From: Pseudocercospora fijiensis CIRAD86
Taxonomy: Eukaryota > Ascomycota > Dothideomycetes > Mycosphaerellales > Mycosphaerellaceae
DNA length: 64,000 bases
Direction: 5' to 3'
Assembly (NCBI RefSeq): GCF_000340215.1
Contig: NW_006921537.1
Span: forward strand, 4,631,051 to 4,695,050
Positions 10,915 to 54,109 of this stretch are shown piece after piece. The notes under the pieces were generated by a model, which worked only from the letters and a program-made list of their open reading frames with translations, made no database searches and was not told the DNA's origin. Numbering within the stretch: position 1 is the stretch's first letter; every line of letters begins with the position of its first letter. The translations under genes were made by a program, and so were the position numbers.

Positions 10915-13744
10915 GTATTTAGTATAACCGTATCGCCTTGTTTAAAGGTTATTAGCGTATAATACTTATTATAGTAGGTCTTTTAATAGGCCTATACTTT
11001 CTTTAACTTATAAGCTATCTTAGTATAGATTTCTCGCATCTTCTGTATACGTTCTATAGCCGCTAGTGTTTCTAATTAACTAGCTTCCCTTCCTTAGCGG
11101 CCAGTGCTCGGCCTCGAGCGGTAGTTATTATAGCATAGCTAGGTTGTAGCCTATAGTAGCGTAGTAGGGTAATACCTTAGTTAATAAATAAACAGAGTTG
11201 TTATATATAAACTCGGCTAGCTATAGGAGGTCTACCTATTTATTAGGGTCTTCGTTAATATAGCTACGTAAGTACTACTATAGGGTAGCATTCTATCTTT
11301 TAGTTTAACTATCGGTCTAAAGATAGAAGGCTATCGATAGCCGATGCTTTAGTCTTAGGTATAGGCATACCTCGCTCTAGTAGTGCAATATAAAGATCGA
11401 GCTACGGTCTAATACTAGCCCTTTAGGTATACCCTAATAGGTATAGAAGATATTGTTCTGTAGCGCTTCTACTAGGTTAACTAATAACTAATCCTTTCTA
11501 GTAGGAATAAGGCCCTCTAGTAAATAGTATATATGTTTATATATTACTAGTGTAATGTTCCTTTATATTCCGCTTACTATTTAGCTAGTAGTATATACGC
11601 AATAGTAGCTCGTACGACCTCCCTATACTATAGCAACTAGCAAGCTTACTATTATAGTATTACTTAAGAATTTCCTATCTAACTAATTGCCTAGCGGCTA
11701 TATATAAGCGGCCCTTATAGCGTAGGTATCTAGTACTATCGACTAACTAGTTATTACTCTTACTAGATCGAGTCTCGCGTCTACTTATAAGCCGAGTAAG
11801 GCGGGTAATAGTAAAGGCGTCCCTCTACTAAGTACGTAGTAGCTTACTTATAAAGGCTTAACCGCTACCTTATATAAGGTCGCTTAATAGTACCCTCGCT
11901 ATCTTACGTAGTACGTACTATATATATCTAGTAGTACTATTAGCCGGATGAACTGTATTAGTGCTGTCGCCGCTATTACTATAAATAGCGACGCTAATTA
12001 TAGAATCCCTATAGTCTATACTTTACCGTGTTTGTTCTTTACGCGCACAATTAATATAGTAGAAATACCCTTATATTATATACGGATAATACGATCGCGG
12101 TATCCGGAGGTCCGCTTATCCTACTATAACTATATAGTAATATCTATAGTAATCTTATAATATAGGGTAGGAAACAATACATTAATAGACTAGATTTCGC
12201 TATCGTAATTAGGTCGTCTCGATAGACTATTAGTAGGGCTGCTTACGCCTAGCCGATATAGAATATCGAAATCGTACCTAGCGAGGTAGACGGCCTATCT
12301 AGTCTATAACCCCTATAACCCTAGTAACCCTAGTAATTCTACGAAGATTGTTATAGTCCGTATAGACCTAAATAGTATAATATATACCGTTAAGATAGTG
12401 CTGCTAATACTTAAAGGCCTCTACGATTGCTAATAGCTCTTACTTATACGTCTCGTACTAGCGTTCTATATTAATTATCTTCCTTAAGAAGAAGGCAATC
12501 GGGTACTAGTAGCTATTATTACTACTGTCCTATTGTAATAGGATAGCGGATATAGCATGCTATAAAGCGTTAGTCTTAATTTTTAGCGGCTTAATTAGGT
12601 TATAATAGTATAGTAGAAGGGTAGTAGTAAACCGCTCCTTTAAGCTATTAAAAGCGGCTTGCCGCTTATACTCTATTACTCTATCTAAGCTCCCTTAAAG
12701 GATTGTTCTTAGTTTTAGTAAGCTTAGTAAGCGGTAATATATAGCGTAAATAGCCCTTAATAAATCGTCGGTAGAAGTTAGTAAAACTAAGGAACAATTA
12801 GAGTTCCTTAACCGTTATTAGTATAGGCTATTTAGTAATAGTCTTTATATAATTAGGATTAGCCTTAACGCCTTTAATAGAAACTAAGAAGCCTAAGAAG
12901 GGTACCTCCTTAGTAGCGAAGGTATATTTAGAAGGTTTGCAATATAGGCTATAGGCTCGTAGGCAGTTAAGGACCTTTCTAATAGTAGCCTAATAGTTAG
13001 CGATATTAGGTAAATAAGTGTATATTAATATATTATTAAGATAGACGATATATAGGTAGTCTAGTAGGCTAGATAAAGCCCTATTAATATAGGACTAGAA
13101 TGTTGTAGTAGTATTAGCTAGCCTAAAAGGCATTACTAAGTATTTAAAACAGCTATAATAGGTACGGAATATAGTCTTCTATTCGCTACCCTTACGGATA
13201 CGGATACGATAGTATACATTCTTTAAAGCTAACGTAGTATAGAAGTAGGTACCTAATAGGCGGTCTAATGTCTTATTAAGGAGCGGAAGTAGGTAGCGGT
13301 CTTTAATAGTAATAGCATTTAGTGTACGATAATTAATATATAGGCGTAGGCTACTTTCCTTCTTAAGAACAAATAGGATTAGTATACTAGTAGGACTATC
13401 GCTATATCTTATCTGCCTATTAGTAAGGTTTTTATCTAGATATTTACGAAGGATAGCTAGCTCTCTTTTACTAAGGTTATAGTAAGCTAAAAGGAACCTC
13501 CTTACCCTCTATTACTTTAATCTTATAATCTATCTCTTTTAGTAGCGGAATTATAGCGGCTAGATAGTGCTTAAATATATTAATATAGGTTTTTTGGATT
13601 AATAGAGGAATGCGCTCGAGTTAGTTAGGTTCTATACTATTAGGTAGCTCTTCCTTTTTAAGAAGGTTAGTAGTTAGGTTAGTAGCTATAAGATTGCTAA
13701 TAAATAGGACCCTAGTACTACTAGGGCATTTACTAGGATTCATT
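10915..13744 (-). pseudogene. gypsy copy 2 pol remnant (RT, RNase H, integrase)
   Basis: Reading the minus strand, RT lies at about 13500-12640, RNase H at about 12600-12250 and integrase at about 12150-11000. The end at about 10970-10920 matches copy 1 at about 3215-3300 (the post-integrase stretch ITFKQGDIVILST in copy 1). Catalytic functions as in copy 1. Stop codons of the TAG/TAA type are frequent. The chromodomain end is missing because the copy is truncated. Confidence 0.85.
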
Positions 13745-13760
13745 AGACCCCGTAGCAGTT
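13745..13760 (+). repeat. left terminal inverted repeat of hAT-A
   Basis: agaccccgtagcagtt; pairs with the reverse complement of 23549-23564 (agaccctgtagtagtt). Differences between the four ends of the two copies are C/T or G/A only. Confidence 0.85.
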
Positions 13761-13959
13761 TGGCTTCCGAACTACTAAACGTATATAGTTTAGTTTCTTA
13801 GCGCCGAACTAGCTCCCTAGTTCCGGTTTAGTTTTTTCGAACTATATAGATTCCTAGTTTGAACTAGAGACTATATTAGTTTTACTATAAGGATACTCTT
13901 ATTCGACTGCCGGCTACGATTGCCGGCTATAATAGGAACTATATTATATTTACTACGCT

Positions 13960-14175
13960 CTTTTACCGTTACTAGGGCGTAGTTGCCGTTACTAGGGCGT
14001 AGTTTTACTATAAGGACACTCTTATTCGACTGCCGGCTACGATTGCCGGCTATAATAGTTACTAGGTTATATTTACTACACTCTATTACCGTTGCTAGGG
14101 CGTAGTTACCGTTACTAGGGCTTAGTTGCCGTTACTAGGGCGTAGTTGCTATTACCGGGGCGTAGTTACCGTAGT
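13960..14175 (+). repeat. subterminal tandem repeats of hAT-A (about 19-20 bp unit)
   Basis: Repeats of ccgttactagggcgtagtt, in two groups separated by a stretch with tgccggctacgattgccgg that itself occurs twice (about 13910 and 14030). The same array is at about 55740-56040 in hAT-B. Subterminal repeats in hAT elements are usually transposase-binding sites; that role here is inference. Confidence 0.75.
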
Positions 14176-14314
14176 TGCGAAAGCTTACCTATATAACGTT
14201 ACGTAGGCGGCAACATTTAGGGCTTCGCGATATTCTTATATCTTTTAAATTCTTCCTCTATACCTATACTAACAATAACTACTATACGCTACGCCCCTAC
14301 CCCTTTTCCTTATA

Positions 14315-15820
14315 ATAGTAAAAGAGAAGCGCGCCGCGCGCTAAATAGAAGATAGAACTAAAGACCGCGAGTTTGTTTTGCCTTAGTATCTAACTAAAAA
14401 GCGTAAGACTAAAGAGGAGTACTCTACGAAGAAGAATTCCGTACGAGACCGCGAGAGAAAGGAGAAGATAGATAAGGATAAAAGAGCTAAGGATAAGAGA
14501 AGAACGGCGCGGAATAAGGTATTCTATCGATAGCTAGCGCCTATAGAAAAAAGTAAAGGTTAGAATAAGAAGACAACCTAAAAGAAGGCTAAGAGGAGGA
14601 AAGAATTACGGCTAGTTTTCGAGCGTAAAGTTCTAGTAGCGTAAGTTAATCTAGCTAGCGGCCGTAGCTAGTAGCTATAGCCGGCAGCCGTAGCCGGTAG
14701 CTATAGCCGGTATATTTTTCTTTAAAACGTTAACTAATAGTATTTAGACCTATAGCCGCTACCTCTATCGATACGACCGATAGTAATAGAGATATTTAGA
14801 TAGCCGAGAATAATAATACTAGAGTTTAGGATACCGCGATAGAGCTTAATACTACGAATAAAGGAACTAAAAAAAGCGAGGAGATACTATACGTCGATCT
14901 AGTAATAGGTATAGTCTTAGGGCCTAACGCTATAGACGATAAGCGCTAGGAGTAGATCGAGTATAGTTAAAGAGACGAGATACTAGTAAAGGGCTAAGGT
15001 ATAAGTCCTATTAATCTAGAAAATTATAGTTAAAGCTACTACGAAAAGCTAGTAAGGATTAGAATCGAGACTAGTCGTCTTTATATCCTCGATATAGAGT
15101 AGAAGTTTCTTTATTAGTATTAGAGCGAAGCCTTTACGTCTATAAAGGCAAAGTAGCTTGCGATTAATACGATCGAGGCTAGGTATCTAGAGACGGTAGA
15201 AGTATTACTAAAGGAGGAAGGGATATAGGTAATTATTCTATACTCGGTATATATAGCTGGCGTTCGTAGCCGGTAGATACTAATAGTTAAATAGAAAGCG
15301 TTTCTCGAGGGTAGAGTACTACTACTATATAAAATCTTTACTAAGGTAGAGAGGGCTTATATCCGGAATCTAAGCTACTAGTAGGATAGGTTAGCGTTAG
15401 AATTCTCTCAATCTCTATATAAGCCTTAAAAGGATTACCTATTTTAGCGATATAGCTTTATCTCGACTACTCCGTAGGTACCTAACGAAGCTCGAGCGCT
15501 CTTTAAGATCTTTACTAAGAAGCGGAAGGAGTTCGAAGATTAGGATTAGTTAATAGAGCTATTAGTTAGTCTTAGGTTTCGTAGTTAGACTCGGCCTAAG
15601 CATTTACTTATCGAGTATCTTATACCGAAAAAGGATAGATTAAGACTAAAAACGAGCTTAGATTCGTTAGGTATAGTAGCTTAGTTCCGTTAGTAGGAGA
15701 GAGCCGCCGTAAAGAAGGCAAAATTTAGGTAGTTAGGGTAGCTAGGAAAGAGATTCTAGTAGTTAGGCTAGCTAGAGTAGCTAGGAAAAAAAATCTAGTA
15801 GTTAGGTAGCTAGGAAACAA
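14315..15820 (+). pseudogene. hAT-A ORF-A: unrecognised basic/charged protein, three exons
   Basis: I do not recognise this protein. The first exon starts at a probable ATG changed to ATA at 14315 and is very rich in Lys/Arg (REFVLPQYLTKKRKTKEEYS, with TAG at the Q). Intron 1 is 14641-14747 (GTAAGT donor, taactaa branch, TAG end; exon phase 2 joins correctly) and intron 2 is 15229-15294 (GTAATT, tactaat, TAG). Exon 3 includes ARALFKIFTKKRKEFED and a repeated QLGQLGKR-type tail near 15725-15810. Stops are all TAG/TAA. It precedes the transposase on the same strand by about 140 bp. It could be an accessory transposition protein; that is inference. Confidence 0.65.
14641..14747 (+). other. intron 1 of ORF-A carrying GCCGGC palindrome array
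   Basis: GTAAGT donor, taactaa branch site and tatttag acceptor. Removing 107 bp joins gc|a and keeps the frame. The interior contains repeated tagccggc/tagccggt units at about 14660-14712. Confidence 0.75.
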
Positions 15821-16623
15821 AAAAAAAGGTAGCTAGCTATTTACTACCTAGCTATTCCTAACGATACGATACTATAAAAGAAAGGGTGTTTCCCTATAGC
15901 TACTAGTATATATCTACTACTCCTAAGTTCTTACCTTACCGTACGAAACTTTAAAACATGCCGACCGATATTAGAAATATACTAGGCGCTATACTAGGAA
16001 AGGTAATAACGAGACGATAATCGAAATAGTCTAATATACGAGCGAGATTGCGACAACGTCGAGAGGAGGTCGTATACTTACCTTCGAGCCTATCGAGTCC
16101 TAGACGACGATTAGGGCTAGATTTATCCTCTCCGAATCCTAGTAGTAGGAATTTATTATAGGGTACTACTACCTAGTCCTTACCTTTACGGAGTCTAAGT
16201 AGAAGGTTGTTCGGAGATATAAGAATATCGAGTTTTAACCCGGAAATCTTCGAAAAGGCTAGCTAGGTATATCTTTAGAAACCCGAGTATATAGAGTAGT
16301 TTAATTAATAGGTCTATAAGATATAGTTCCCTTTATACTTACGTTTAAAGGAGTATAAACTCCGGAAGTACTCGATACGATAAGGTAGTAAAGAGCGAAC
16401 GGATATATTCTAGAAGTTCTTTATAGAGGGGGTATTATACCGTTATACGACTTCTCGACTTAAAGGTTAACTAGTAATTATCTATAACTTCTACGGTTTA
16501 ATCTTAAAATACCCGAAACTAGGGGATAGGAACTTATCGCCTACGAACTATCTCTATTCTAAACAGTATCGGGAATCTTAAAGAGAGAGGAGAGTTAATA
16601 TAGATATAGCGTTCTAGAAAGAG

Positions 16624-16702
16624 GTACGTCTTCTAAAATACCGGCTATAGCTACCGGCTATAGCTACCGGCTACAGATTCTAGCTACTTTAATTAACCGT
16701 AG
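16624..16702 (+). other. transposase intron with GCCGGC palindrome array
   Basis: GTACGT donor to TAG acceptor, 79 bp, not a multiple of three; its removal is needed to join two hAT-like frames in phase 0. Contains three accggctatag-type units at 16640-16672. Confidence 0.75.
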
Positions 16703-17657
16703 AGATCTAGCTAATTATTATAGGCTACGCTTAAGGAAGCTCTAGGATTAAAGGCTACCGATTTCTCCCCCGAAGACTTGAAGTAACTAGTAAACGAAAT
16801 GCTAGCTATAAACGGTCTTCCGGAAGACTTCTACGAAAGGGAGTCTCTATAGAAGATATATCTATATCTTATAAACTACCCTCCCCTATTTCTCGGCGTA
16901 ATAACCTAGCGTATTATATTCGAAAAGAATAAAGAGGCTACGTTAGACGATATTCGGGAGATCCTCCGTAATACTCGCCGAGTAGCTATTACTATCGATA
17001 GCTAGTTAAGCCGGACTATAAGAGCCTCCTTCCTCTCGATTATACTATACTTTATTAATTCGGATTAGAAACTCTAGGAACTTATAATCGGATTCCTTAA
17101 AATTCTAGGTTCCTATACTAGTAAGGATATAGCGAAGCTTATCTATACGGTAATAGATAGGGTTAGCGTAATAATGAAACTAATCTCGATTACTACGGAT
17201 AACGCTAGTAATAATCGAACATTATATAAGGCGTTATATATACAATTTACTCGTATATATCTTTAAAATTACTAATTATATCGATAGGGTCGAGTACGTA
17301 AAGGAGATTATAAGGTCTATAATCTAGCTTAATCTTCCGAATATTGAGCTCGCTACGATTCCGGATACGTACGATAATACGTACGATAATAACGATAAAG
17401 AGGAGCCTAGTAATAGCCCTAGCCCTATTAAATCGGAGCCGACGTCGATACTAGTTATATCCTTATAGAAGTTTCCCTACCTCGCTTATATAGTTTAAAT
17501 CGCGATCCGAGCCTTCTTTAAGACGCTTAAAATTGCACTATTAAACGACGACTAATAGAAGATCCTAAATAAGGATAAAGCAAAGTCGAAAGTCGAGAAA
17601 CTCGTTATAGTAATAAGACGGGATAAGGTAGAGAGCCTCGCTCTCGTTTTATATTAG

Positions 17658-17726
17658 GTATAACTTTTGTCTATAGCCGGTACCCGTAGCCGGTAACCTA
17701 GTATAGTTCTAACTCTTTTTCTCTAG
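17658..17726 (+). other. second transposase intron with GCCGG repeat
   Basis: GTATAA donor, ttctaac branch site, ctctag acceptor, 69 bp with an in-frame TAA. Contains tagccggtacccgtagccgg near 17673-17693. Confidence 0.7.
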
Positions 17727-19252
17727 CTTCGTCGTCTAGTAATATATACGAACTCGAGCTTATAGAGATATAACCGATTCGAGGCTATTTAAAAGAACCT
17801 AATCGAGCGCCTTAAAACTAATACCTAGAATATCGTATAGAATAAGCGATAGCAAAAGCGGCCTCCTTAGCGCCTACTCCGTTTTACCTAAGACGTTAAG
17901 ACCTAGTTCGATTCGACTTTCTATATAGTTATAAGGGGATATACTTTACGTATCGCTCTCGAGATCTATTAGAGTTCCGAGAGTATTAAGTAGCTTAGGC
18001 TTAGTCCCGCCGAATAGCGCTAAGTAGAGTATCTCGTCGATATTAGTAAGCATTACGCGAAGGTTACTACTACGATTAGAAGAACCCGAGGACCGACAAT
18101 CTACCTTATCTTTACGTACTATAACTAGCTCTTTAACGAGCTCGACGAAACTATAGCTAAGCTAGCTAAGAAGAGCGTTCCCTAGAAAGTAGCTATAACG
18201 AAAGCTGTAGATACCTCCTATACTAAGTTATATAAATATTATAGTGCTACCTTTCAGTCGTTCGGGGATATCTATAGCGTTACGTACTTACTTAACCTAG
18301 TAGAAAAGGATATATACTAGTAGAAGCTAGAATAGAAAGGGGACGAGGAATAGCCTAAGTATTACTAGACTATTCTAGAAAAGATATTCTACGAGCGTCG
18401 GAAAGAAACTAGTCTAAATATAGCTCCTATAAAGAAAAAGAAGGTTTAGATAGCTCTAATATTATACCTGTTTCGTAGGTAGGAAATAGAGGCAGAAGAG
18501 GAAGCAACTACTAAAGTAAATAAAGAAGAGTTCGATCTCTATCGGCGCGTAGGTAAGTACTAATTTAGCGAAACCCGTAGGCTCGGAAAGAGGGCTAATA
18601 ATCTCTAGATCTTACCGGTCTTCTAGACGAATTCGGAGACGATATTCTCGCTATATAGTAGCGGTTAGAGCCTAAGTTTCTAACGATAGCGTCGGTTGCT
18701 CGGGACGTCCTCGCTATACCGAGCGTAGGTATAGGCTATAAGAGGTCTTTTAGTATCGCTCGTTACTAGGGCCGCTTTAATCGAATATACTCGCCTACTA
18801 CCTTCGAATCTATTATAGTATTCCGATACTATCTCCTTTACTAGAATCGCTAAGGTAGGTTACTAAAGATTATACTAAAGGACTTAATCGAGGAATTAGA
18901 AAACCTTAAGATCGAAGAAACCTAGGAGCGCGAAGAGAATACGAAATTTAGTCTAAGCGAAACCCTAATTAGCGATAACGAAGAGAAGGAGGGCGGAGGT
19001 AGAAAGCGATACCGGATTAAGAAGCGGAAACGTATATAGGCTTAGAGTAGCTTTAAGGAGACGAAGCGTTTATATAGAAGGTAACGTAGCCGGCGTATAT
19101 AGCCGGTATATATCTTTAATATATTCCGAATTCCTAGAACCTAAATAGACTAGTTGCTATAGCAACCTACCCCGCTTATATACGGACTATTTCTAATTCT
19201 CTATTCGCTCTTCCTCTCCTTCTTCCCTTTCCCTATATTCTTAAAGATAAAT

Positions 19253-20096
19253 ATACCTTAAGGATTCGGCTCTTCGGGCCTTCCTAAGCTAGCTACCTCC
19301 CCTTCCTTAAGCGACTATCCTTTATACGAATCTAACGATAACCTACTAAGGCGGTTTAATAAAAGACTATTTATTCTAGAAGGTAAGAAGTATTAATATC
19401 TCCTTACGGTTATATACTTATTAATTTTCTAGGTTCTACCGATATACCCTTATCGCCTAAACGCGTAGATAAATATCTTTAGAGACTAAAGGGTAAGGGT
19501 AAAGTAAGCTAAGTATAGGGAGACCGTAGCGAGAACGAGATATCGGAAGAGTAAGACTCTCTATAGTATATACGAAGGAAGGGGATTCCTCGGAAAACAG
19601 TACTAAAAAATAAGAAGGCTTTAGGTAGATAAGAGAAGGCTAAAAAGAATAGGCGGACGAAGGCTATCGCGAAGAAAAGTTATCTTTCTATTAAAAAAAG
19701 GAAATAAGGTAGGACTCGACGATAACGAAGCGGCGCTTTAAACTAGGTACTATTACCCTTCGCTAGATCCGGCTTTTCTAAAACAAAAGAGGGACCGAGC
19801 TTTTAATTACTAAGACTCCCTTCTAGCGACTCGTCCGAGAAATTATATTAGACTTTCGGTCTAGTATACGATTTACGGCTAAAGCAATTAGTACTCTTTA
19901 GAAAGCTACGGAGGTATTTCTCGTAACCGAGCTTAAGCTTTTAAACCTCCTTGCTATCTATACGAAGCGGGTTACTCTTTAAAATAAAGATATATAGCTT
20001 CTAGCTAAAATTCGGCGTCGGTTTATAGCGGATTAGTTAGAAATTGTATTTAGTCGTTAGATTAACCTAGGAGGAGGCCTATTTTCGTATCCTTTT
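19253..20096 (+). pseudogene. histone H3-like gene 1 (long N-terminal tail) carried by hAT-A
   Basis: A histone H3-family protein. The histone fold reads at about 19738-20031: KRRFKLGTITLR, GTELLITKTPF, RLVREIIL, then FTAKAISTL, KATEVFLVTEL, LLAIYTKRVTL and KDIQLLAKIRRR, matching H3 blocks STELLIRKLPFQRLVREI, EAYLV and AIHAKRVTIMPKDIQL. The tail of roughly 150 residues is Lys-rich (RRKGIPRKTVLKNKKALG). Start is ATG changed to ATA at 19253 (ATG kept in copy B). Intron 19383-19432. Copy A has lost one base in an A run near 19690-19702, putting tail and fold in different frames; copy B is in frame. The long divergent tail resembles CENP-A-type H3 in layout only. The end is uncertain. Confidence 0.85.
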
Positions 20097-20430
20097 ACCG
20101 GCTATAGGTACCGGCTATATTTCTAATTTTATCTCCGCGCCGTCTCTAAATCTAAGGTACGAAGTAGAAACCTAGCGCTCTATATTTACCCGGCTGTTAT
20201 AGAGACGAGCTATATTTAGATTAGTTTCTTCGTATATCGTAACCTAGCGGGTAGTAAGCGAAAGGGCGATAGAACGTTTATAATACGTCTCTATTTAGAC
20301 CTAAAATATAAAGGTCCTAAGGAGCCCTAGTATCCTAACTATAAGGAGATTCTTTAGTATTAGTACTTTAATCCTCTATACTACGAGGTAGATAGTAAGC
20401 CTACGAGAGAGAAACTTTAACGAGAAATTC
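20097..20430 (+). pseudogene. unassigned coding-like segment after H3-like gene 1
   Basis: Begins with a GCCGGC repeat (20098-20125). One frame then runs to about 20430 with only TAG/TAA breaks and reads SYIQISFFVYRNLAGSKRKG and YLDLKYKGPKEPQYPNYKEI. It is conserved in hAT-B (about 49510-49850). It may be a last exon of the H3-like gene or a separate small gene; I do not recognise it. Confidence 0.45.
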
Positions 20431-21150
20431 TCTATAATACGTAGCGCTATTATATAGCTATAGATACGTACTAAGTCTAGTAACTCGAAGAAGAATTAAG
20501 ATAGCGTATTAGCGACCGAGGAGGAGATCGATAGTATACTAGTAGAGTCGAGGTCTTATAAGCGAAGTATAAGATAATATAGGCTCCTAGTTATTTAGAG
20601 TAACGTACTATATAAATAACTAGGCGTACTACTCTTATTTACTTACGACCTATATCCTAGGATACTCTTCTCGTACTTTTTATACTCTTTTCTAATACCT
20701 TACCTATAATCGCTCCGCGATAACCGAGTAAATATAAGCTATAGGATTTCCGCTCGGTACCTTAGCCTTCGAGATACGGCGGAGTTAATTCTCTATATTA
20801 CGTAGCGCTATTATATAGCGATAGATACGTACTAAGTCCGGCAACTCGAAGAAGAATTAAGATAGCGACCGAGTAGGAGATTAATAGTATATTAGTAGAG
20901 TCGAGGTCTTATAAGCGAAGTACGAGATAATATAGGCTCTTAGTCGTATAGAGTAACGTACTATAGAAATAACTAGGCGTACTACTCTTATTTACTCACG
21001 ACGTATATCCTAGGATACTCTTCTCGTACTTTTTATACTCTTTTCTAATACCTTACCTATAATCGCTCCGCGATAACCGAGTAAATATAAGCTATAGGGT
21101 TTCCGCTCGGTACCTTAGCCTCCGAGATAGGGCGGAGTTGAATTTAGAGC
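20431..21150 (+). repeat. about 361 bp tandem duplication inside hAT-A
   Basis: Unit 1 from about 20431 and unit 2 from about 20792 share gtagcgctattatatag, agatacgtactaagt and gaagaagaattaagatagcg, through to the end near 21150. hAT-B has the same duplication at about 48790-49520, so it predates the separation of the two copies. No coding frame seen. Confidence 0.85.
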
Positions 21151-21936
21151 GATAGCCGGCACTCGTAGCCGGTATATAGAGACGGTAGTAGGCCTTTTCC
21201 TACTAAATAACTAGCTTGTTTAGTATAGCCTACCTAATATTTCTTATATTTACTAGCAATAGGCCTAGGTTACTTATAAGATTACTATAGCTAGTAAAGG
21301 CATTACTGAAGAATATCTATACTATAGTAGGATACTATTATTACGCCGGCTATTTATTAAAAGAAGGCTTTCGCCTAGTACTATACTAGCTATATATACC
21401 GGCTATATTTCAAAGTTTGCCGTACCTGCCTTTTTTAGCCGTATCTACCTTCTTTCCTTACTCTAACGTTACTATAATATAGGCTTACGCGACGCTTACT
21501 CTATTATCTAGCGATACCGCGATACTACCTCTCTTACTATATTTAACCTTCGTATCGATACCTATACCTCTACGCTCTATATCTACTACCTCTATAATAC
21601 CCTCGCTCCGCGCGCGCCTTTGTATACCTTTATAACGCACTTTTTTCCTTAATTCGACGACTTTTATAATACCGAGTCTACTTAACTAAGTTACGACGCC
21701 TCGTAAGAAGGGACCTACTACTTCTACGGGTCGTAATAAGACCGGAAATAGTAGAACGAGTATATTATATTAACGTAAGAAGGCTACTACTACTATCGCT
21801 AGCTCCGATACTAGAAAGGGCGTCGCGAGTAAGGCTCCGCGTAAGACAATAGCGGGTAAGGCTCTACGTAAGACGACAACTAGCGCTTCTACTACTAGTA
21901 GCAATAATCGTACGAAGCGTCGATAGCGTCTAGGAA

Positions 21937-22027
21937 GTAAGTCCTATTTATAGCCGGTAGCGTAGCCGGTAGCGTAGCCGGTAGCGTAGCCGGCATTCTT
22001 ACTATCTTTTTACTAATCCTTCTTTAG
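21937..22027 (+). other. intron 1 of H3-like gene 2 with GCCGGT repeat array
   Basis: GTAAGT donor, ttactaat branch site, tctttag acceptor. Joining A|CC gives Thr in GTVVLRKIRKYQKS, exactly the H3 sequence context. The intron contains four tagccggtagcg units at 21951-22000. Confidence 0.85.
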
Positions 22028-22210
22028 CCGTAGTCCTCCGTAAGATTCGGAAGTATTAGAAGAGTTCTAATCTCCTAATCTATAAAGCTCCTTTCTAACG
22101 ACTTATTCGCGAAATTGCCTAGGATTATAGAACGGACCTTCGCTTCTAAGCCTCCGCGATAGGCGCCCTTTAAGAGCCTATAGAAGCCTACCTAGTTCGT
22201 ATCTTCGAAT

Positions 22211-22258
22211 ATATATTTCTCTTCTACCTCTTTTCGGACTATACTAATACTATTTTAG
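22211..22258 (+). other. intron 2 of H3-like gene 2
   Basis: 48 bp with tactaatac branch site and tattttag end. The donor reads ATATAT here and ATATGT in hAT-B, consistent with an original GTATGT after T whose TpG sites were hit by RIP. Joining T|CG yields FESVNL, matching H3 FEDTNL. No GCCGGC motif. Confidence 0.75.
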
Positions 22259-22734
22259 CGGTTAACCTTATAGCTATCTACGCGAAGCGTATAACGATTA
22301 TAGACAAGGATTTTAAAGCACTCGATTAGATTCTAAAAGGCTAGAATATCTATATTCGAGATAGTACTAGGTAGGATAGATATTCTAGTAGGAAGGATAT
22401 TCGTAGTATCGTCTATAAGCTTTTCTATATACGAAATAAGCCGCTGTTATACGGCGCTATATACCGCGCTCTAAATACTCTCTAAGTATATATATATAGT
22501 ATAGTATACTTTATTAGCCGTACGGAATAGAAGTCTTCGAAAATCCCGTTAGTACTAAGGAGTAAAAAGGCCGGCTACGCTGCCGGCTACGCTACTAGGT
22601 TTTTTAAAGAACTAAAAGAAGATATACATTCCGGTTAATTTATATTAGTTTGGATTTTTATAAAAAGAAAACAGGGAAAAATAAGGATAGTTAAAGAGTC
22701 TAATGCTTATAGTTATAGGCATTATCCCTGTTTT

Positions 22735-23181
22735 CTAGACTATATTATATACCTGCCTTCGTAACTCTACCTAATACTCCCTCTAAATATCCTTATACTC
22801 TACCTACTAGAAATTTAACTAGGTACCTAGACCTATAGCTACCTCTATATCTTTTACTATCTTCTATAGGTTAAAGGACTCCTCTATAGCAGCCTCTACC
22901 TCCTTATATAATACGAAGTTACTACCTACCCTATCCTTAATATCTCCTAAATAACTAAGAGTTCTAAGGAACGAACTAGTATTCGGCCTTAGTATAGCGA
23001 GTAGCTAGTAGAACGTTCTATAAAGCTGCCTTATAGCTCTTTTATATACTATACCGATACCGAGGGAGGAGCTATCCTAGTACTTAATATTAGAGAATAG
23101 TTTATTTAGAAATTAGTCGAACTTCTTAAGGAGGGCTTCTAGGGAAATCGATAAGTTCTACCTAGATCTAGATAATAACAT
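22735..23181 (-). pseudogene. hAT-A antisense ORF, unrecognised, about 148 aa
   Basis: I do not recognise this protein. On the minus strand an intact ATG at 23181 opens a frame that runs to TAG at 22735 with only TAG breaks inside; in hAT-B (46721-47170) the same frame is kept and the ATG reads ATA. Readable segments in copy B include SSFLGIGIVYKRAIRQLYRT, LRPNASSFLRTLSYLGDIKG and KEVEATIEEAFNL, suggesting a mostly helical protein. It is transcribed toward the transposase side. It could be host-derived cargo or an element protein. Confidence 0.55.
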
Positions 23182-23548
23182 TCTACCGAGCAGTTAGGGA
23201 ATTAAATAGCGAGCGAAAGGATGAAATTTATACCTAATAAGTGCAGTTTCTAAACTAAACTATAATAGCTTATATATATATATGCTTTTGATTAGTTAGT
23301 GCCCTTAGCTAATTGTCTATAGATTTAGGGTTATATAAGTACCTTCCTATAACTGAAAAATGCCGGCTACGCTACCGGCTATACTCTCGTATCTTATAAA
23401 GGGCTTGCTTCGAGTTACGTAGACATTCTTACACTTCTTAGAAACCGATAAATTCTATAGTTCGAACTAGCTAATCCTATAGTTGCTTAGCAAACTAACC
23501 TAAACCAAACTAGATCTTCGGCTTAGTAAACCAAACTAAACTAACCCG

Positions 23549-23564
23549 AACTACTACAGGGTCT
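23549..23564 (-). repeat. right terminal inverted repeat of hAT-A
   Basis: Ends ctactacagggtct on the + strand; reverse complement matches 13745-13760. Confidence 0.85.
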
Positions 23565-24680
23565 AGGATTAATATAGTTAATGTCCTCCTTTCTAGCTAT
23601 TCTAAAACGCTATTATTAGCTACCGAGGTATATTTTTATAGCATAATAGCTTAGTACAGGATTACTAAGTAGAATAGTAGCTCCGTAGTAGAGGTTGTCT
23701 ATATTAATAGTATAGGTACTAAAATCTAGAATCCTCTTATTACCGATATTATCCTTTAGAACTATATTAATATAGTATACTCTATAGGTCTAGTATCTAG
23801 TCTAATCAAACTAAGTAAGGATTAGTATATTAGCTATTTAGGTCGTACTTCTATAATCTATACTAAATTATCTTTAGATAGTAGGTCGTCCTTAATAGCC
23901 CTTAGTTAGTTTTAAAAGGCTTAAGCAGTCTTATCGGATTTCTGTTTAGCGTAGAGAAATTGTTCCTAAGTACGCTATTGTCTTAAATAGGGGTTGCTAA
24001 GCGTATTTAGTATAGTGTCCTTATAGGTTTGCTAGTCGATTTTAGATAGGTCTTTAAGCCTTAAGGGAATTAAAGTAGTTATCCTAGGTTCTCTTAGGGT
24101 CGCTATCGATATATTATATAGCGTAGACGACTAAGGCGTATTTAGTTAATAGCGCTATTAGTATATTGCGCTAGTTAAGCTTACAGTTACGGATATAGTC
24201 GTTGTACTGCTTCCTATTAGAGCTATTAAATATAGTATAGTCCTTAAGTTTAGTATCCTTTCTTAGTACTAGTTCTTCTACTATAGGCGTCCTAAGTTTA
24301 GCCGTAAGGCGTTAGATAGCCGCGAAGTTCTTACAGACTTTCTTCTCTCGCTAGAGGGCTTAGAGTTTGTTACGTAGACAGGTCCTTAGGGGCCCGAGGT
24401 TAGGTAGTCTAAATAGTAGATAGCTACCCCGTTAGCCTATAACGAAGCCTTTATTTATAATATTGTTATAGCTATCTATCTTAGTCTATAATTAATTAAC
24501 TTAGTTAAATAGGCTATATAGAAGGCCTAGGTTAGTAATTAGTACGGTCGAATTGGTAGTTTCTTAGTGTATAGGTCTTAACCGTCTTACCTTAGTAGGA
24601 GGCTAGTTTTAGAGCGGATTTTAAGCCGTATTCTTAAATTAATTAACTATCTAGCTATAGCCCTAAAAGGGTAGATTAAA
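23565..24680 (-). pseudogene. gypsy copy 2 gag and protease remnant
   Basis: Minus-strand continuation of copy 2 upstream of the hAT-A insertion; it lines up with copy 3 at about 58740-60830. No full frame survives. It lies directly downstream (minus strand) of the LTR at 24686-24846. Confidence 0.65.
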
Positions 24681-45627: not shown

Positions 45628-46134
45628 TACGCTTCCTTTCTAAAGGCCGCGCCCTCGTAGCCTGTCTATATTCTAATCTTAACCTCTATTACCGCTAACT
45701 TAGTATATTAACTAAGCTGTTTAGCTACGCTAAATTAAACGCTTAACTACCTAATTGTGTAACTATATTAAACCTTGCCTCCTAGTATAATACAAGGTTT
45801 AACTCTAACTACGCTATCTTTATATATAATAAAGTAATATATATCTATAAGAATTAAGGGCTATCGACTAATTATAATACGAGCGCGTCTTTCCTACTAT
45901 AATAGGTAGGTATACGAGGTATTACAGCACTGCCTCCGTTCTAAGTAATATCGTTTCGAGTTCTTTACGTCTACTCTAAAAGACCTAGAAATGTCTACTC
46001 CCGAGGGTTTATTCTTATTATTACGAGAGCTATTATTTACTATCGTAGTTTCGCTAGCCCTAATTAGTTAGGTTTAGCAGCCTTTAATTGTTAATTAATC
46101 TTATCTTTTTAAAAAAACGCAGTTCGTCTAGTTT
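45628..46134 (-). other. gypsy copy 3 3' noncoding region
   Basis: A purine-rich tract (agaaaggaagcg on the minus strand) next to the LTR is a probable polypurine tract. 45950-46134 matches copy 1 at about 4445-4612 in reverse complement. No gene. Confidence 0.65.
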
Positions 46135-46261
46135 AGACCCCGCAGTGGTTCGGTTTGGTTTAGTTTAGTTTACTAAGCCGAAGATCTGGTTTAGTTTGGG
46201 TTGGTTTGCTAAGTAACTACAAGAGTAGCTAGTTCGAACTATAGAATTTATCGGTTTCTAA

Positions 46262-46669
46262 GAAGTGTAAGAATGTCTACGTAACTCGAAGCAAGCCCTT
46301 TATAAGATACGAGAGTGTAGCCGGCAGCGTAGCCGGCGTTTTTCAGTTGTAGGAAGGTACTTATATAACCCTAAATCTATAGGCAATCAGCTAAAGGCAC
46401 TAACCAATTAAAAGCATATACACAGACAAGCTATTATAGTTCAGTTTAGAAACTGCACTTATTAGAAGTGTAAGAATGTCTACGTAACTCGAAGCAAGCC
46501 CTTTATAAGATACGAGAGTATAGCCGGCAGCGTAGCCGGCATTTTTTAGTTGTAGGAAGGTACTTATATAACCCTAAATCTATAGATAATTAGCTAAGGG
46601 TACTAACTAATTAAAAGTATACATATATATAAGCCATTATAGTTCAGTTTAGAAACTGCACTTATTAGG
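46262..46669 (+). repeat. 204 bp tandem duplication specific to hAT-B
   Basis: Units start at 46262 and 46466 with gaagtgtaagaatgtctacg and run through tagccggcagcgtagccggc to aaactgcacttatta. hAT-A has a single unit (about 23250-23460). Confidence 0.9.
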
Positions 46670-46720
46670 TATAAATTTTATCCTTTCGCTCGCTATTTAA
46701 TTCCCTAACTGCTCGGTAGA

Positions 46721-47170
46721 ATATTATTATCTAGATCTAGGTAGAACTTATCGATTTCCCTAGAAGTCCTCCTCCTTAAGAAGTTCTAACACTTTCCTAC
46801 CGAACTATTCGACAATATTAAGTACTAGGATAGCTCCTTCCTCGGTATCGGTATAGTATATAAAAGAGCTATAAGGCAGCTCTATAGAACGTTCTACTAG
46901 TTACTCGCTATACTAAGGCCGAATGCTAGTTCGTTCCTTAGAACTCTTAGTTATTTAGGAGATATAAAGGGTAGGGTAGGTAGTAACTTCGTATTATATA
47001 AGGAGGTAGAGGCTACTATAGAAGAGGCCTTTAACCTATAGAAGACAGCAAAAGATATAGAGGCAGCTATAGGTCTAGGTACCTAGTTGAATTTCTAGTA
47101 GGTAGAGTATAAGGATATTTAGAGGGAGTATTAGGTAGAGTTGCGAAGGCAGGTATATAATATGCTCTAG
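46721..47170 (+). pseudogene. hAT-B antisense ORF, unrecognised, about 149 aa
   Basis: Counterpart of 22735-23181 in hAT-A. The frame opens at an ATA (ATG in copy A) and ends at TAG 47168-47170; internal breaks are TAG. Readable: SLEVLLLKKF, SSFLGIGIVYKRAIRQLYRT, GDIKGRVGSNFVLYKEVEAT, DIEAAIGLGT. Not recognised. Conservation of frame in two separately mutated copies supports a real protein in the parent element. Confidence 0.55.
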
Positions 47171-47431
47171 AAAATAGGGATAGTGCCTATAACTATAACT
47201 ATTAGGCTCTTCAACCTTCCTTATTTTTCCCTATTTTCTTTTTATAAAAATCCAAACTAATACAAATTAACCGGAATGTCTATCTTCTTTTAGTTCTTTA
47301 AAAAGCCTAGTAGCGTAGCTAGCAGCGTAGCCGGTAGCGTAGCCGGCCTTTTTACTCCTTAGTACTAACGGGATTTTAGGAGACTTCTATTCCGTACGGC
47401 TAATAAAGCATACTATACTATATATATATAC

Positions 47432-48257
47432 TTAGAGAGTATTTAGAGCGCGGTATACAGCGCCGTATAATAGCGGCTTATTTCGTATATAGAAAAGCTT
47501 GTAGATAACACTACGAATATCCTTCCTACTAGAATATCTATCCTACCTAGCACCGTCTCGAATATAGATATTCTAGCCTTTTAGAATCTAATCGAGTGCT
47601 TTGAAATCCTTGTCTATAATCGTTATACGCTTCGTATAGATAGCTATAAGGTTGACCGCTAAAATAGTATTAGTATAGTCCGAAAAGAGGTAGAAGAGAA
47701 ACATATATTCGAAGATACGAACTAGGTAGGCTTCTATAGCCTCTTAAAGGGCGCCTATCGCGGAGGCTTAGAAGCGAAGGTCCGTTCTATAATCCTAGGC
47801 AATTTCGCGAATAAGTCGTTAGAAAGGAGCTTTACGGATTAGGAGCTTAGAACTCTTCTAATACTACCGAATCTTACGGAGGGCTACGGCTAAAGAAGGA
47901 TTAGTAAAAAGATAGTAAGAATGCCGGCTACGCTGCCGGCTACGCTACCGGCTACGCTGCTAGCTACGCTGCCGGCTATAAATAGGACTTACTTCCTAGG
48001 CGCTATCGACGCTTCGTACGATTGCTACTAGTAGTAGAAGCGCTAGTTATCGTCTTACGTAGAGCCTTGCCCGCCGTTATCTTACGCGGAGCCTTACTCG
48101 CGACGCCCTTTCTAGTACCGGAGCTAGCGGTAGTAGTAGCAGCCCTCTTACGTTAATATACTATACTCGTTCTACTATTTCCGGTCTTATTACGACCCGT
48201 AGAAGCACTAGGTCCCTTCTTGCGAGGCGTCGTAACTTAGTTAAGTAGACTCGCTAT
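47432..48257 (-). pseudogene. histone H3-like gene 2, copy B
   Basis: Counterpart of 21669-22485. Start reads ATA (ATG GCG expected) at 48257. The tail has TTPRKKGP and KAPRK-type sequence, then an intron with GCCGGC units (about 47925-47985), then the H3 fold including RLIREIA and, after a 48 bp intron, SVNLIAI and AKR. The second intron donor reads ATATGT here, one RIP step from GTATGT, whereas copy A shows ATATAT. C-terminal extension as in copy A. Stops are TAG/TAA. Confidence 0.85.
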
Positions 48258-48789
48258 TATAAAAGTCGTCGAATTAAGGAAAAAAGTGCGTTACGAAGGT
48301 ATACGAAGGCGCGCGCGGAGCGAGGGTATTACGGAGGTAGTAGATATAGAGCGTAGAGGTATAGGTATCGATACGAAGGTTGAATATAGCGGTAGTATCG
48401 CGGTATCGCTAGGCAATAGAGTAAGCTTCGCGCAAGCCTATATTATAGTAACGTTAGAGTAAGGAAAGAAGGTAGGTACGGCTAAAAAAGGCAGGTACGG
48501 CTAAAAAAGGCAGGTACGGCAGACTTTAAAATATAGCCGGCATATATAGCCGGCATAGTAATAGGCGAAAGCCTCCTTTTAATAAATAGCCGGCGTAATA
48601 ATAGTATCCTACTATAGTATAGATATTCTTTAGTAATGCCTTTACTAGCTATAGTAATCTTATAAGTAACCTAGGCCTATTGCTAGCAAATATAAGAAAT
48701 ATTAGGTAGGCTATACTAAACAAGCTAGTTATTTAGTAGGAAAAGGCCTACTACCGTCTCTATATGCCGGCTACGAGTGCCGGCTATCG

Positions 48790-49520
48790 CTCTAAATTCA
48801 ACTCCGCCCTATCTCGGAGACTAAGGTACCGAGCGGAAACCCTATAGCTTATATTTACTCGGTTATCGCGGAGCGCTTATAGGTAAGGTATTAGAAAAGA
48901 GTATAAAAAGTACGAGAAGAGTATCCTAGGATATAGGTCGTAAGTAAATAAGAGTAGCACGCCTAGTTATTTATATAGTACGTTACTCTATACGACTAAG
49001 AGCCTATATTATCTTATGCTTCGCTTATAAGACCTCGACTCTACTAGTATACTGTCGATCTCCTCCTCGGTCGCTAATACGCTATCTTAATTCTTCTTCG
49101 AGTTGCCGGACTTAGTACGTATCTGTAGCTATGCAATAGCGCTACGTATTATAGAGAATCAACTCCGCCGTATCTCGAAGGCTAAGGTACCGAGCGGAAA
49201 TCCTATAGCTTATATTTACTCGGTTGTCGCGGAGCGATTACAGGTAAGGTACTAGAAAAGAGTATAAAAAGTACGAGAAGAGCATCCTAGGATATAGGTC
49301 GTAAGTAAATAAGAGTAGTACGCCTAGTTATTTATATAGTACGTTACTCTATACGACTAAGAGCCTATATTATCTTATGCTTCGCTTATAAGACCTCGAC
49401 TCTACTCGTATACTATCGATCTCTTTCTCGGTCGCTAATACGCTATCTCAATTCTTCTTCGAGTTACCGGACTTAGTACGTATCTATAGCTATATAATAG
49501 CGCTACGTATTATAGAGAAT
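48790..49520 (-). repeat. about 361 bp tandem duplication in hAT-B
   Basis: Counterpart of 20431-21150: two units sharing cgagttgccggacttagtacg / cgctacgtattatagagaa-type ends. No gene. Confidence 0.8.
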
Positions 49521-49869
49521 TTCTCGTTAAAGTTTCTCTCTCGTAGGCTTGCTATCTACCTCGTAGTATAGAGGATTAAAGTACTAATACTAAAGAATCT
49601 CCTTATAGTTAGGATACTAGGGCTCCTTAGGACCTTTGTATTTTAGGTCTAAATAGAGACGTATTATAAACATTCTATCGCCCTTTCGCTTACTACCCGC
49701 TAGGTCGCGATATACGAAGAAACTAATCTAAATATAGCTCGTCTCTATAATAGCCGGGTAAATATAGAGCGCTAGGTTTCTACTTCGTACCTTAGATTTA
49801 GGGACGGCGCGGAGATAAAATCAGAAATATAGCCGGTACCTATAGCCGGCAAAAGGATACGAAAATAGG

Positions 49870-50695
49870 CCTCCTCCTAGGTTAATCTAACGACTAAATA
49901 CAATTTCCAACTAATCCGCTATAAACCGACGCCGAATTTTAGCTAGAAGCTATATATCTTTATTTTAAAGAGTAACCCGCTTCGTATAGATAGTAAGGAG
50001 GTTTAAAAGCTTAAGCTCGGTTACGAGAAATGCCTCCGTAGCTTCCTAAAGAGTACTAATCGCCTTAGCCGTAAATCGTATACTAGACCGAAAATCTAAT
50101 GTAATTTCTCGGACGAGTCGCTAGAAAGGAGTCTTAAGGATTAAAAGCTCGGTCCCTCTTTTGTTTTAGAAAAGCCGGATCTAGCGAAGGGCAATAGTAC
50201 CTAGTTTAAAGCGCCGCTTCTTTATTGTCGAGTCCTGCCTTATTCCCTTTCTTTTAATAGAAAGATAACTTTTCTTCGCGATAGTCTTCGTCCGCCTACT
50301 CTTTTTAGCCTTCTCCTATCTACCTATAGCCTTCTTATTTTTCGGTACTGTTTTCCGAGGAAACCCCTTCCTTCGTATATACTACGGAGAGCCTTGCTCT
50401 TCTAATATCTCGTTCTCGCTACGGTCTCCCTATACTTAGCTTGCTTTACCCTTGCCCTTTAGCCTCTAAAGATATTTATCTACGCGTTTAGGCGACGAGG
50501 GTATATCGGTAGGACCTAGAAAATTAATAAGTATATAATCGTAAGGAGACATTAATGCTTCTTGCCTTTCAGAACAAATAGTCTTTTATTAAACCGCCTT
50601 AGTAGGTTATCGTTAGATTCGAATAAAGGATAGTAGCTTAAGGAAGGGGAAGTAGCCGGCTTAGGAAGGCCCGAAGAGCCGAATCCTTAAGGCAT
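49870..50695 (-). pseudogene. histone H3-like gene 1, copy B (start codon and frame kept)
   Basis: Counterpart of 19253-20096. ATG is intact at 50695. Tail and histone fold are in one frame here: KKSYLSIKRKGIRQDSTI continues into KKRRFKLGTIALR, then NKRGTELLI and the rest of the fold. It is broken by TAG/TAA at Gln/Trp positions. The intron donor reads GCAAGA (GTAAGA in copy A), so the parent may have used a GC donor that CpA-to-TpA mutation turned into GT in copy A. Fold blocks as in copy A. The 3' end is uncertain, near a GCCGGC repeat at about 49840-49858. Confidence 0.83.
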
Positions 50696-50864
50696 ATTTA
50701 TCTTTAAGAATATAGGGAAAGGGAAGAAGGAGAGAAAGAGCGAATAGAGAATTAGAAATAGTCCGTAGATAAGCGGGGTCGGTTACTATAGCAACTAGTC
50801 TGTTTAGGTCCTAGGAATTCGAAACACATTTCGGATATATACCGGCTATATACGCCGGCTATAT

Positions 50865-53800
50865 TACCTTATACGTAAACGCTTCGTCTCCTTAAAGCTA
50901 CTCTAAGCCTATATACGTTTCCGCTTCTCGACCCGGTATCGCCTTCTACCTCCCCCCTCCTCCTCTTCGTTATCGCTAATTAGGGTTTCGCTTAGACTAA
51001 ATTTCGTATTCTCTTCGCGCTCCTAGGTTTCTTCGATCTTAAGGTTTTCTAATTCCTCGATTAACTCCTTTAGTATAATCTTTAGTAACCTACCTTAGCG
51101 ATTCTAGTAGAGGAGATAGTATCGGAATACTATAATAGATTCGAAGGTAGTAGGCGAGTATATTCGATTAAAGCGGCCCTAGTAACGAGCGATACTAAAA
51201 GACCTCTTATAGCCTATACCTACGCTCGGGATAGCGAGGACGTCCCGAGCGACCGACGCTATCGTTAAAAACTTAGGCTCTAACCGCTGCTATATAGCGA
51301 GAATATCGTCTCCGAATTCGTCTAGAAGACCGGTAAGATCTAGAGATTATTAGCCCTCTTTCCGAGCCTACGGGTTTACACTTACTCGCGCGCCGATAGA
51401 GATCGAACTTTTCTTTATTTACTTTAGTAGTTGCTTCCTCTTCTGCCTCTACTTCCTACCTACGAAATAGGTATAATATCGGAGCCTTCTAAACCTTCTT
51501 TTTCTTTATAGGAGCTGTATTTAGACTAGTTTCTTTCCGACGCTTGTAGAACATCTTTTCTAGAATAGTCTAGTAATGCTTCGGCTATACCTCGTCCGCC
51601 TTCTATTCCGGCCTCTACTAGTATATATCCTTTTCTACCGGGTTAAGTAAGTACGTAACGCTATAGATATTCCCGAACGACTTAAAGGTAGTACTATAAT
51701 ATTTATACAACTTAGTATAGGAGCTGTCTATAGCTTTCGTTATAGCTACTTTCTAGGGAACGCTCTTCTTAGCTAGCTTAGCTACGGTTTCCTCGAGCTC
51801 GTTAAAGAGCTAGTTATAGTACGTAAAGACAAGGTAGATCGTCGGTCCTTAGGTTCTTCTAATCGTAGTAGTAACCTTCGCGTAATGCTTACTAATATCG
51901 ACGAGATACTCTACTTAGCGCTATTCGGCGGCGGTAAGGCCGAGCTACTTAATACCTTCGGAACTCTAATAGATCTCGAGAGCGGTACGTAAAGTATATC
52001 CCCTTATAACTATATAGAAAGTCGAATCGAACTAGGTCTTAACGTCTTAGGTAAAACGGAGTAGGCGCTAAGGAGGCCGCTTTTACTATCGCTTATTCTA
52101 TACGATATTCTAGGTATCGGTTTTAGGGCGCTCGATTAGGTTCTTTTAAATAGCCTCGAATCGGTTATATCTCTATAAGCTCGAGTTCGTATATATTGCT
52201 AGACGACGAAGCTAGAGAAAAAGAGTTAGAACTATACTAGGTTGCCGGCTATAGATGCCGGCTACGGACAAAAGTTATACCTTATATAAAACGAGAGCGA
52301 GGCTCTCTACCTTATCCTATCTTATTACTATAACGAGTTTCTCGACTTTCGACTTTGCCTTATCCTTATCTAGGATCTTCTATTAGTCGTCGTTTAATAA
52401 TGCAATTTTAAGCGTCTTAAAGAGGGCTTAGATCGCGATTTAAACTATATAAGCGAGGTAGGGAAACTTCTATAGGGATATAACTAGCAACGACGTCGGC
52501 TCCGATTTAATAGGGCTAGGGCTATTACTAGGCTCCTCTTTGTCGTTATCGTCGTACGTATTATCGTACGTATCCGGAATCGTAGCGAGCTTAATATTCG
52601 GAAGATTAAGCTAGATTGTAGACCTTATAATCTCCTCTACGTACTCGACCCTATCGATATAATTAGTAATTTTAAAGACATATACGAGTAAATTGTATAT
52701 ATAACGCCTTATATAATGTTCGATTATTACTAGCGTTATCCGTAGTAATCGAGATTAGTTTCGTTATTACGCTAACCCTATCTATTACCGTATAGACAAG
52801 CTTCGCTATATCCTTACTAGTATAGGAACCTAGAATTTTAGGGAATCCGATTATAAGTTCCTAGAGTTTCTAATCCGAATTAATAAAGTATAGTATAATC
52901 GAGAGGAAGGAGGCTCTTATAGTCTAGCTTAACTAGCTATCGATAGTAATAGCTACTCGGCGAGTATTACGGAGGATCTCCTAAATATCGTCTAACGTAG
53001 CCTCTTTATTCTTTTCGAATATAATACGCTAGGTTATCGCGCCGAGAAATAGGGGAGGGTAGTTTGTAAGATATAGGTATATCTTCTATATAGACTCCCT
53101 TTCGTAGAAGTCTTCCGGAAGACTATTTATAGCTAGCATTTCGTTTGCTAGTTACTTAAAGTCTTCGGGGGAGAAATCGGTAGCCTTTAATCCTAGAGCT
53201 TCCTTAAGCGTAGCCTATAATAATTAGCTAGATCTCTACGGTTAATTAAAGTAGCCGGAATCTATAGCCGGTAGCTATAGCCGGTAGCTATAGCCGGCAT
53301 TTTAGAAGACGTACCTCTTTCTAGAACGCTATATCTATATTAACTCTCCTCTCTCTTTAAGATTCCCGACACCGTTTAAAATAGAGATAGTTCGTAGGCG
53401 ATAAGTTCCTATCCCCTAGTTTCGGGTATTTTAAGATTAAACCGTAGAAGTTATAGACAATTACTAGTTAACCTTTAAGTCGAGAAGTCGTATAACGGTA
53501 TAATGCCCCCTCTATAAAGAACTTCTAGAATATATCCGTTCGCTCCTTACTCCCCTATCGTATCGAGTACTTCCGGAGTTTATACTCCTTCGAACGTAAG
53601 TATAAAGGGAACTATATCTTATAGACCTATTAATTAAACTGCTCTATATACTCGGGTTTCTAAAGATACGCCTAGCTAGCCTTTTCGAAGATTTCCGGGT
53701 TAATACTCGATATTCTTATATCTCCGAACAACCTTCTACTTAGACTCCGTAAAGGTAAGGACTAGGTAGTAGTACCCTATAATAAATTCCTACTACTAGG

Positions 53801-53980
53801 ATTCGGAGAGGATAAATCTAGCCCTAATCGTCGTCTAGGACTCGATAGGCTCGAAGGTAAGTATACGACCTCCTCTTAACGTTATCGCAATCTCGCTCGT
53901 ATACTAGACTATTTCGACTATCGTCTCGTTGTTACCCTTCCTAGTATAGCGCCTAGTATATATACAATATCGGTCGGTAT
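50865..53980 (-). pseudogene. hAT transposase, copy B
   Basis: Counterpart of 15958-19085. Start reads ATA at 53980. The same hAT blocks and the same introns with GCCGGC arrays (about 53255-53300 and 52235-52265) are present. TAG/TAA breaks; inactive. Confidence 0.85.
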
Positions 53981-54109
53981 GTTTTAAGGTTTCGTACGGT
54001 AAGGTAAGGACTTAGGAGTAGTAGATATATACTAGTAGCTATAGGGAAATACCCTTTCTTTTATAGTATCGTATCGTTAGGAATAGCTAGGTAGTAAATA
54101 GCTAGCTAC

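Follow-up and report, generated by a model that had tools for sequence, protein, structure and literature searches.

Why should a DNA transposon carry histone genes, and did these genes ever serve it? The question is raised by a window of 64,000 nucleotides from Pseudocercospora fijiensis CIRAD86 (contig NW_006921537.1, positions 4,631,051 to 4,695,050 of the forward strand), the term window denoting throughout the whole stretch that was analysed. By repeat comparison it contains two copies, 94% identical, of one ~10-kb hAT element. An earlier note on this DNA, made from the letters alone, had proposed that a hAT transposase and two different histone H3-like genes lie together between the terminal inverted repeats (TIRs) of this element; the TIRs with their target-site duplications (TSDs), a Pfam Histone match (E = 2.5e-22) and protein searches bear this out. 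The answer towards which we lean is that, before repeat-induced point mutation (RIP) overtook them, both H3 variants functioned as genes of the element, were maintained by selection together with the transposase and had a likely use in the element's own chromatin.

The kind of element is not new. The earlier note knew of no described hAT with histone cargo, but two such descriptions are in print. Manning et al. (2013; PMC3538342) reported a hAT carrying an H3-like gene (H3L) in Pyrenophora tritici-repentis and asked, in the available text, whether there is selection for captured genes, and why. Dhillon et al. (2019; PMC6710886) counted 784 H3-like sequences in 471 elements of P. fijiensis itself; they give a full length of 9.5-9.9 kb, a 20-bp TIR, an 8-bp TSD, RIP and, on scaffold 6, an original H3 gene made up of three exons. 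There, each element H3 is taken for a retrocopy of the host gene, and the second one is said to contain an insertion of 16 aa; ten de-RIPped copies have exon-exon junctions and no host introns, all copies are dead, and the dimerisation domain could not be identified. The window element matches these descriptions as a ~9.5-kb hAT with a 20-bp TIR, an 8-bp TSD, one or two H3-like sequences and hundreds of RIP-inactivated copies, in a genome with an intact three-exon H3 on scaffold/contig 6, and on these features it is very probably a member of the published family. Unlike the published reading, as far as its available text goes, we find two H3 lineages, two introns in the second gene, signs of past selection, and a weak, sub-threshold match to the dimerisation domain in 5/5 copies tested. 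The Pyrenophora element, compared by description only, is similar in its TIRs, transposase and unusual H3-like gene, but is 5.6 kb long and has a single H3L and nearly identical copies with expressed sequence tags; PMC6710886 judges it an independent event. Our literature search, which is no proof of absence in print, found no histone-carrying transposon beyond these two, PMC4994206 (in its available text) only citing the 2013 paper.

The H3-like genes of the window are the following.

19576..20036, + strand: H3-like gene 1, copy 1; basic tail and histone fold, interrupted by RIP-type stops, the tail also frameshifted in this copy
49914..50372, - strand: H3-like gene 1, copy 2; matches Pfam Histone
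21690..21936, + strand: gene 2, exon 1; basic tail, start codon not located
21937..22027, + strand: gene 2, intron i, situated where tail and fold meet; GTAAGT ... TACTAATCCTTCTTTAG, with a minisatellite of the GTAGCCGG type inside
22028..22210, + strand: gene 2, exon 2; alpha-N to alpha-2
22211..22258, + strand: gene 2, intron ii; length 48 nt, the donor reading ATATAT here but GTATGT in certain other copies, end TACTAATACTATTTTAG
22259..22341, + strand: gene 2, exon 3; loop 2 to alpha-3
47576..48236, - strand: H3-like gene 2, copy 2; three exons and two introns

Both genes encode a recognisable H3 histone fold, gene 1 by Pfam and gene 2 by protein search. Read through its stops, gene 1 matches the Histone model at E = 2.5e-22 in copy 1 and 7.3e-24 in copy 2, and a frame holding two histone stretches in another genomic copy (locus L014) reaches E = 6.8e-42. 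The earlier note had named the lack of a significant H3 profile match as grounds for giving up its call; the gene 1 values dispose of that objection, and the genes are where it had placed them, with slightly changed limits (19576-20036 and 21690-22341). Gene 1 is ~50% identical to known H3s over the aligned part. For the spliced read-through of gene 2, 3707 of 3836 candidates are matches at E <= 0.001, and its identity to canonical H3s is ~64% over 71% of the query. The tails of both genes differ from those of known H3s.

These genes recur throughout the genome (73.9 Mb in 30 contigs). Short conserved patterns (<=3 mismatches) detect the transposase at 356 sites, gene 1 at 378 and gene 2 at 380, or 758 for the two H3 genes together, the reversed controls giving 0, 0 and 1, respectively. 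A chance or misread H3 was considered and rejected on the Histone match (E = 2.5e-22) and the 378 and 380 genome sites. Besides the window copies we sampled loci L001-L031; among the 22 element loci of L009-L031, both transposase probes and gene 1 are present in 22/22 and gene 2 in 21/22, in constant order and strand. Our alignment of 23 rows combines the two window copies with 21 loci (17 copies of subfamily A, two of B and four of C) and leaves aside L021, whose gene 2 and 3' end fall outside its stretch, L001-L008 (short stretches or host H3) and L025 (the host centromeric H3, CenH3). Of 728 polymorphic columns with two states in subfamily A, transitions make up 690, and 511 of these transitions lie at CpA/TpG; judged by this pattern, the copies are inactivated by RIP-type mutation. 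Reading-frame length has been kept despite the stops, in 22/23 copies for the gene 1 fold, 23/23 for gene 2 exon 2 and 21/23 for exon 3.

Are the two genes simply copies of the host H3? In a tree of 30 rows, including 20 proteins chosen from 240 among the matches listed, gene 1 (support 97/97) and gene 2 (100/99) form separate groups, and neither groups with the host H3 (L001) or the host CenH3 (L025); 14 of the 27 inner branches are weak. This placement in an H3/CENP-A tree, for which the earlier note had called, thus makes the genes look like two separate H3-like lineages and not host H3 copies. The two host genes have the histone fold in common with the element genes, but their frames are open. 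The host H3 is intact, with three exons by eye, on contig 6, and the host CenH3 has an intron inside the fold (also by eye). In the tree gene 1 groups, at moderate support, with P0128, an intact unnamed protein of 164 aa from a 1,189-base contig, which is 48% identical to it over 99% of gene 1. P0128 has the C-terminal and loop features of gene 1; it shares with gene 1, and not with the host H3, the motifs NLLAI and AK(L/I)RRRF and two extra residues before alpha-1, and among 247 proteins compared it is the sole match to all five gene 1 signature patterns; it differs from gene 1 in being intact and in its longer loop 1.

The tails also set the element genes apart. Neither carries the canonical ARTKQTARKS / AARKS motifs, and AR(K/R)S is found in 0/23 copies for each gene when three frames of either tail are scanned; the gene 1 tail has AKKS in 22/23 copies. 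Methylation of H3K9 and H3K27 acts at ARKS.

Gene 2, moreover, appears to be interrupted by introns. Its second interruption starts with GTATGT or the RIP-type derivatives ATATGT, GTATAT and ATATAT, ends with TACTAAYRCTATTTTAG or a near variant, and measures 48 nt in 22/23 copies by script; the remaining copy (L028) was scored as 26 because the pattern was met earlier, at TTTTAG, and aligns over the same length. Its excision restores the exact H3 length (E-S-V-N-L-I-A-I-Y-A-K-R against E-D-T-N-L-C-A-I-H-A-K-R). The stretch therefore looks like a spliceosomal intron and, a 16-aa insertion being 48 nt, the insertion described in the available text of PMC6710886 looks like the same intron ii. Intron i was measured in 21/23 copies (the pattern was not met in L012 and L027), with lengths of 79, 91, 102, 103, 105 and 116; some of the steps between them are not divisible by three, so intron i is non-coding, and its minisatellite explains most of the variation. 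Donor, branch-point-like and acceptor sequences of the two introns are common to all three subfamilies. By eye, intron i lies one codon off host H3 intron 2, and nothing in the host H3 corresponds to intron ii; no gene 2 intron is at an exact host position, and the host H3 and CenH3 intron positions differ from those of gene 2. With two intron-like stretches bearing conserved signals, gene 2 does not look like an intronless, processed retrocopy. The earlier note's picture of introns joining H3 blocks in phase is thus borne out for gene 2, while in gene 1 no intron is seen.

Did the genes function before RIP? RIP makes transitions, and transversions are therefore the cleaner clock. We compared the subfamilies by codon position; the totals exclude the tail of gene 2, the 300 bases that precede this gene, and transposase piece two (17229-17690). 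Between A and C, third positions account for 11/21 transversions in gene 1 and 15/27 in the gene 2 fold (together 26/48), for 31/67 in three of the four transposase pieces and for 89/287 in three spacers. The H3 genes differ from the spacers at Fisher p = 0.0019, or 0.0029 when the spacers are taken to include the 300 bases preceding gene 2 (96/299), and the excess persists at five majority thresholds from 0.5 to 1.0. Between B and C the third-position count is 19/40 (p = 0.044). The H3 transversion rate (48/677) is lower than that of the two adjoining spacers (204/1214; p = 9e-10). In the gene 2 tail the pattern is reversed: 22/25 of the A-C transversions fall at positions 1 and 2 (p = 0.015, uncorrected). 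Taken together, the transversions hint that the H3 genes were functional before RIP, which is a lead and not a proof.

The 300 bases preceding exon 1 (~21391-21689) are themselves unusually conserved between A and C, with 12 transversions in 271 sites, 7/12 of them at third positions; perhaps they represent another exon or the promoter.

A number of observations weigh against long-kept, working H3 genes. Gene 1 groups with P0128 at only moderate support (86/81), and RIP lengthens branches. The intron ii donor is GT in only 6/23 copies, the others having AT, a RIP-type change, and the gene 2 introns have, unexplained, fewer A-C transversions (1/90 and 1/50) than the exons (27/251). Between A and B there is no third-position excess (8/24), and one spacer leaned to third positions by chance in that comparison (10/18; p = 0.04). 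The single-gene values are modest (p = 0.056 for gene 1 and 0.014 for the gene 2 fold), and inclusion of the gene 2 tail brings the H3 total to 29/73 (p = 0.15), so that the excess is lost. The H3 transversion rate equals that of the 5' spacer (83/1211; p = 0.85), and rate alone is therefore no sign of constraint. Finally, every one of the 23 aligned copies has stops in the fold of gene 1 as well as in exons 2-3 of gene 2, so neither gene can have a function today in this genome.

The element that carries the genes is bounded as follows.

13744..23565, + strand: hAT element copy 1, by TIRs, flanks and repeat comparison; nested in another repeat
46134..56202, - strand: hAT element copy 2, by TIRs and repeat comparison
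13744..13763, + strand: 5' TIR of copy 1, 20 bp
23546..23565, - strand: 3' TIR of copy 1, 20 bp
13736..13743, no strand: left TSD of copy 1, GGATTCAT
23566..23573, no strand: right TSD of copy 1, GGATTAAT, 7/8 identical to the left

Short TIRs with 8-bp TSDs are the ends of the hAT superfamily. Both ends are available for 15 copies, namely 13 loci and the two of the window; ten of the 15 have identical 8-bp TSDs, window copy 1 has the 7/8 match, and four, window copy 2 included, have none. The TSD sequences vary from copy to copy, and from such dispersed copies with different TSDs we infer that the element has transposed. Genome-wide, the TIR pattern (<=2 mismatches) is found at 477 + 470 = 947 ends, against 2 for the reversed control.

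The transposase lies upstream of gene 1, in pieces.

16742..17266, + strand: RNase H-like part with the TTDNASNN block, by reading frames; its L014 counterpart is in the joined read-through
17229..17690, + strand: middle piece in another frame, by reading frames and joined read-through
17886..18590, + strand: piece with the DVKT-FDST block, by reading frames and joined read-through
18602..18922, + strand: C-terminal dimerisation region, by sub-threshold PF05699 and joined read-through

All five C-terminal pieces tested match PF05699 below threshold (E 0.004-0.006, ~17 bits against a cut-off of 21.4). The RNase H pieces match a hAT model of Pfam in 0/5 cases; the names they do draw are all sub-threshold, PF21787 (transposase-like RNase H) in 2/5 (E 0.05 and 0.09) and otherwise unrelated ones. 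Genome scans with PF04937 and PF05699 gave matches elsewhere and none within the window. The joined L014 read-through, however weak its single domains, finds seven proteins at E <= 0.001 among 8000 candidates scored, and the best (E = 3.5e-20) is annotated with PF02892, PF14372 and PF05699, which we take to be the zinc-finger, RNase H (in its hAT sense) and dimerisation domains. These features point to a decayed hAT transposase with an RNase H-like core and a C-terminal dimerisation domain. Apart from Histone and a CENP-T histone fold below threshold, six-frame Pfam scans of one copy (L014) at E <= 0.1 turned up no further model, hence no other recognisable cargo.

Some further features of the element and its surroundings may be recorded here. 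The repeat hosting copy 1 has relatives at 1-3337 and 56202-59038 of the window and contains a reverse-transcriptase-like open reading frame (13179-13508, - strand) that is Ty3/gypsy-like by eye only. The GTAGCCGG-type minisatellite recurs across the element (21957-22003, 14641-14716, 16635-16697, 17662-17695 and others). Between the two H3 genes, both window copies have a ~365-bp tandem duplication (20426-21144); a stretch of that size is absent there in 12/15 other subfamily A rows. In three of the four subfamily C copies (L026, L029, L030) the 5' part cannot be aligned with A before ~window 16500 (~50% identity), while that of the fourth, L024, does align; the three have either a different 5' region or are chimeric. 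At L026:1718-2100 the H3 gene 2 of a subfamily C copy is interrupted by a 383-bp element that has the TIRs of the hAT and is flanked by an 8-bp TSD (GATCGAGG), and among the ends listed at least three inward-facing TIR pairs are 368-373 bp apart, so that a family like the miniature inverted-repeat transposable elements would seem to ride on the hAT.

How, then, might the histones have been of use? If they were working genes, selection would have acted on both H3 variants as well as on the transposase during the divergence of subfamilies A, B and C, the variants most likely serving in the element's own chromatin, and RIP would then have killed the copies. More speculatively, tails without ARKS might have made the copies, or the whole nucleus during bursts of transposition, harder to silence: with ARKS absent from both tails, nucleosomes containing such an H3 could escape K9/K27 methylation. 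The modest transversion evidence and the missing ARKS are compatible with the idea that the element's chromatin was marked or protected by H3 of the element's own making.

The published interpretation is the most serious alternative, even if we hold it to be rather unlikely. It supposes that a processed host H3 transcript was captured once, is present twice in the hAT, and was amplified with it as inert cargo, pseudogenised by RIP, that never served the element. The de-RIPped copies of PMC6710886 (ten, in its available text), all dead and with exon-exon junctions in place of host introns, speak for it, as do the lack here of any intron at an exact host position, the intronless state of gene 1, and the loss of a significant third-position excess once the gene 2 tail is included. 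What it does not accommodate are the two conserved introns of gene 2, one of which would be the 16-aa insertion; the existence of two lineages, with gene 1 features shared with the intact P0128 and not with the host H3; and the excess of third-position transversions in gene 1 and in the fold of gene 2. On these intron, lineage and selection details, the sequences argue for revising the published origin of the two genes as retrocopied passengers.

A bolder version of the functional reading is doubtful: in it, a hAT lineage had its own functional H3 pair, the folds under selection and the gene 2 tail fast-changing, and put silencing-resistant chromatin on the element or its host as a counter-defence. 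It is improbable that H3 was carried for dosage, to supply free histone during replication or bursts and not to form variant chromatin. The recognisable histone folds and the near-equal numbers of H3 and transposase modules would suit such a supply, but a dosage gene should resemble the host H3, whereas the identities are only ~50% (gene 1) and ~64% (gene 2) and the tails differ, and the six-frame scan of L014 revealed no H4 partner at E <= 0.1. That one of the genes is a diverged centromeric H3 targeting insertion or transmission is very improbable indeed, for although some named centromeric H3s are among the 120 gene 1 matches listed, in the alignment both genes lack the longer loop 1 seen in the host CenH3, neither groups with the CenH3 rows of the tree, and the TSDs vary between copies.

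The H3-carrying hAT family has been presented in PMC6710886 as an example of how a housekeeping gene was captured and then killed. If instead the two H3s were long-kept, working genes, we would be dealing with a mobile element equipped with nucleosome subunits of its own, and the case may be one of counter-defence through a histone variant, in fungi whose repeats are silenced and subjected to RIP. The question posed in 2013, of selection for captured genes, would then become testable.

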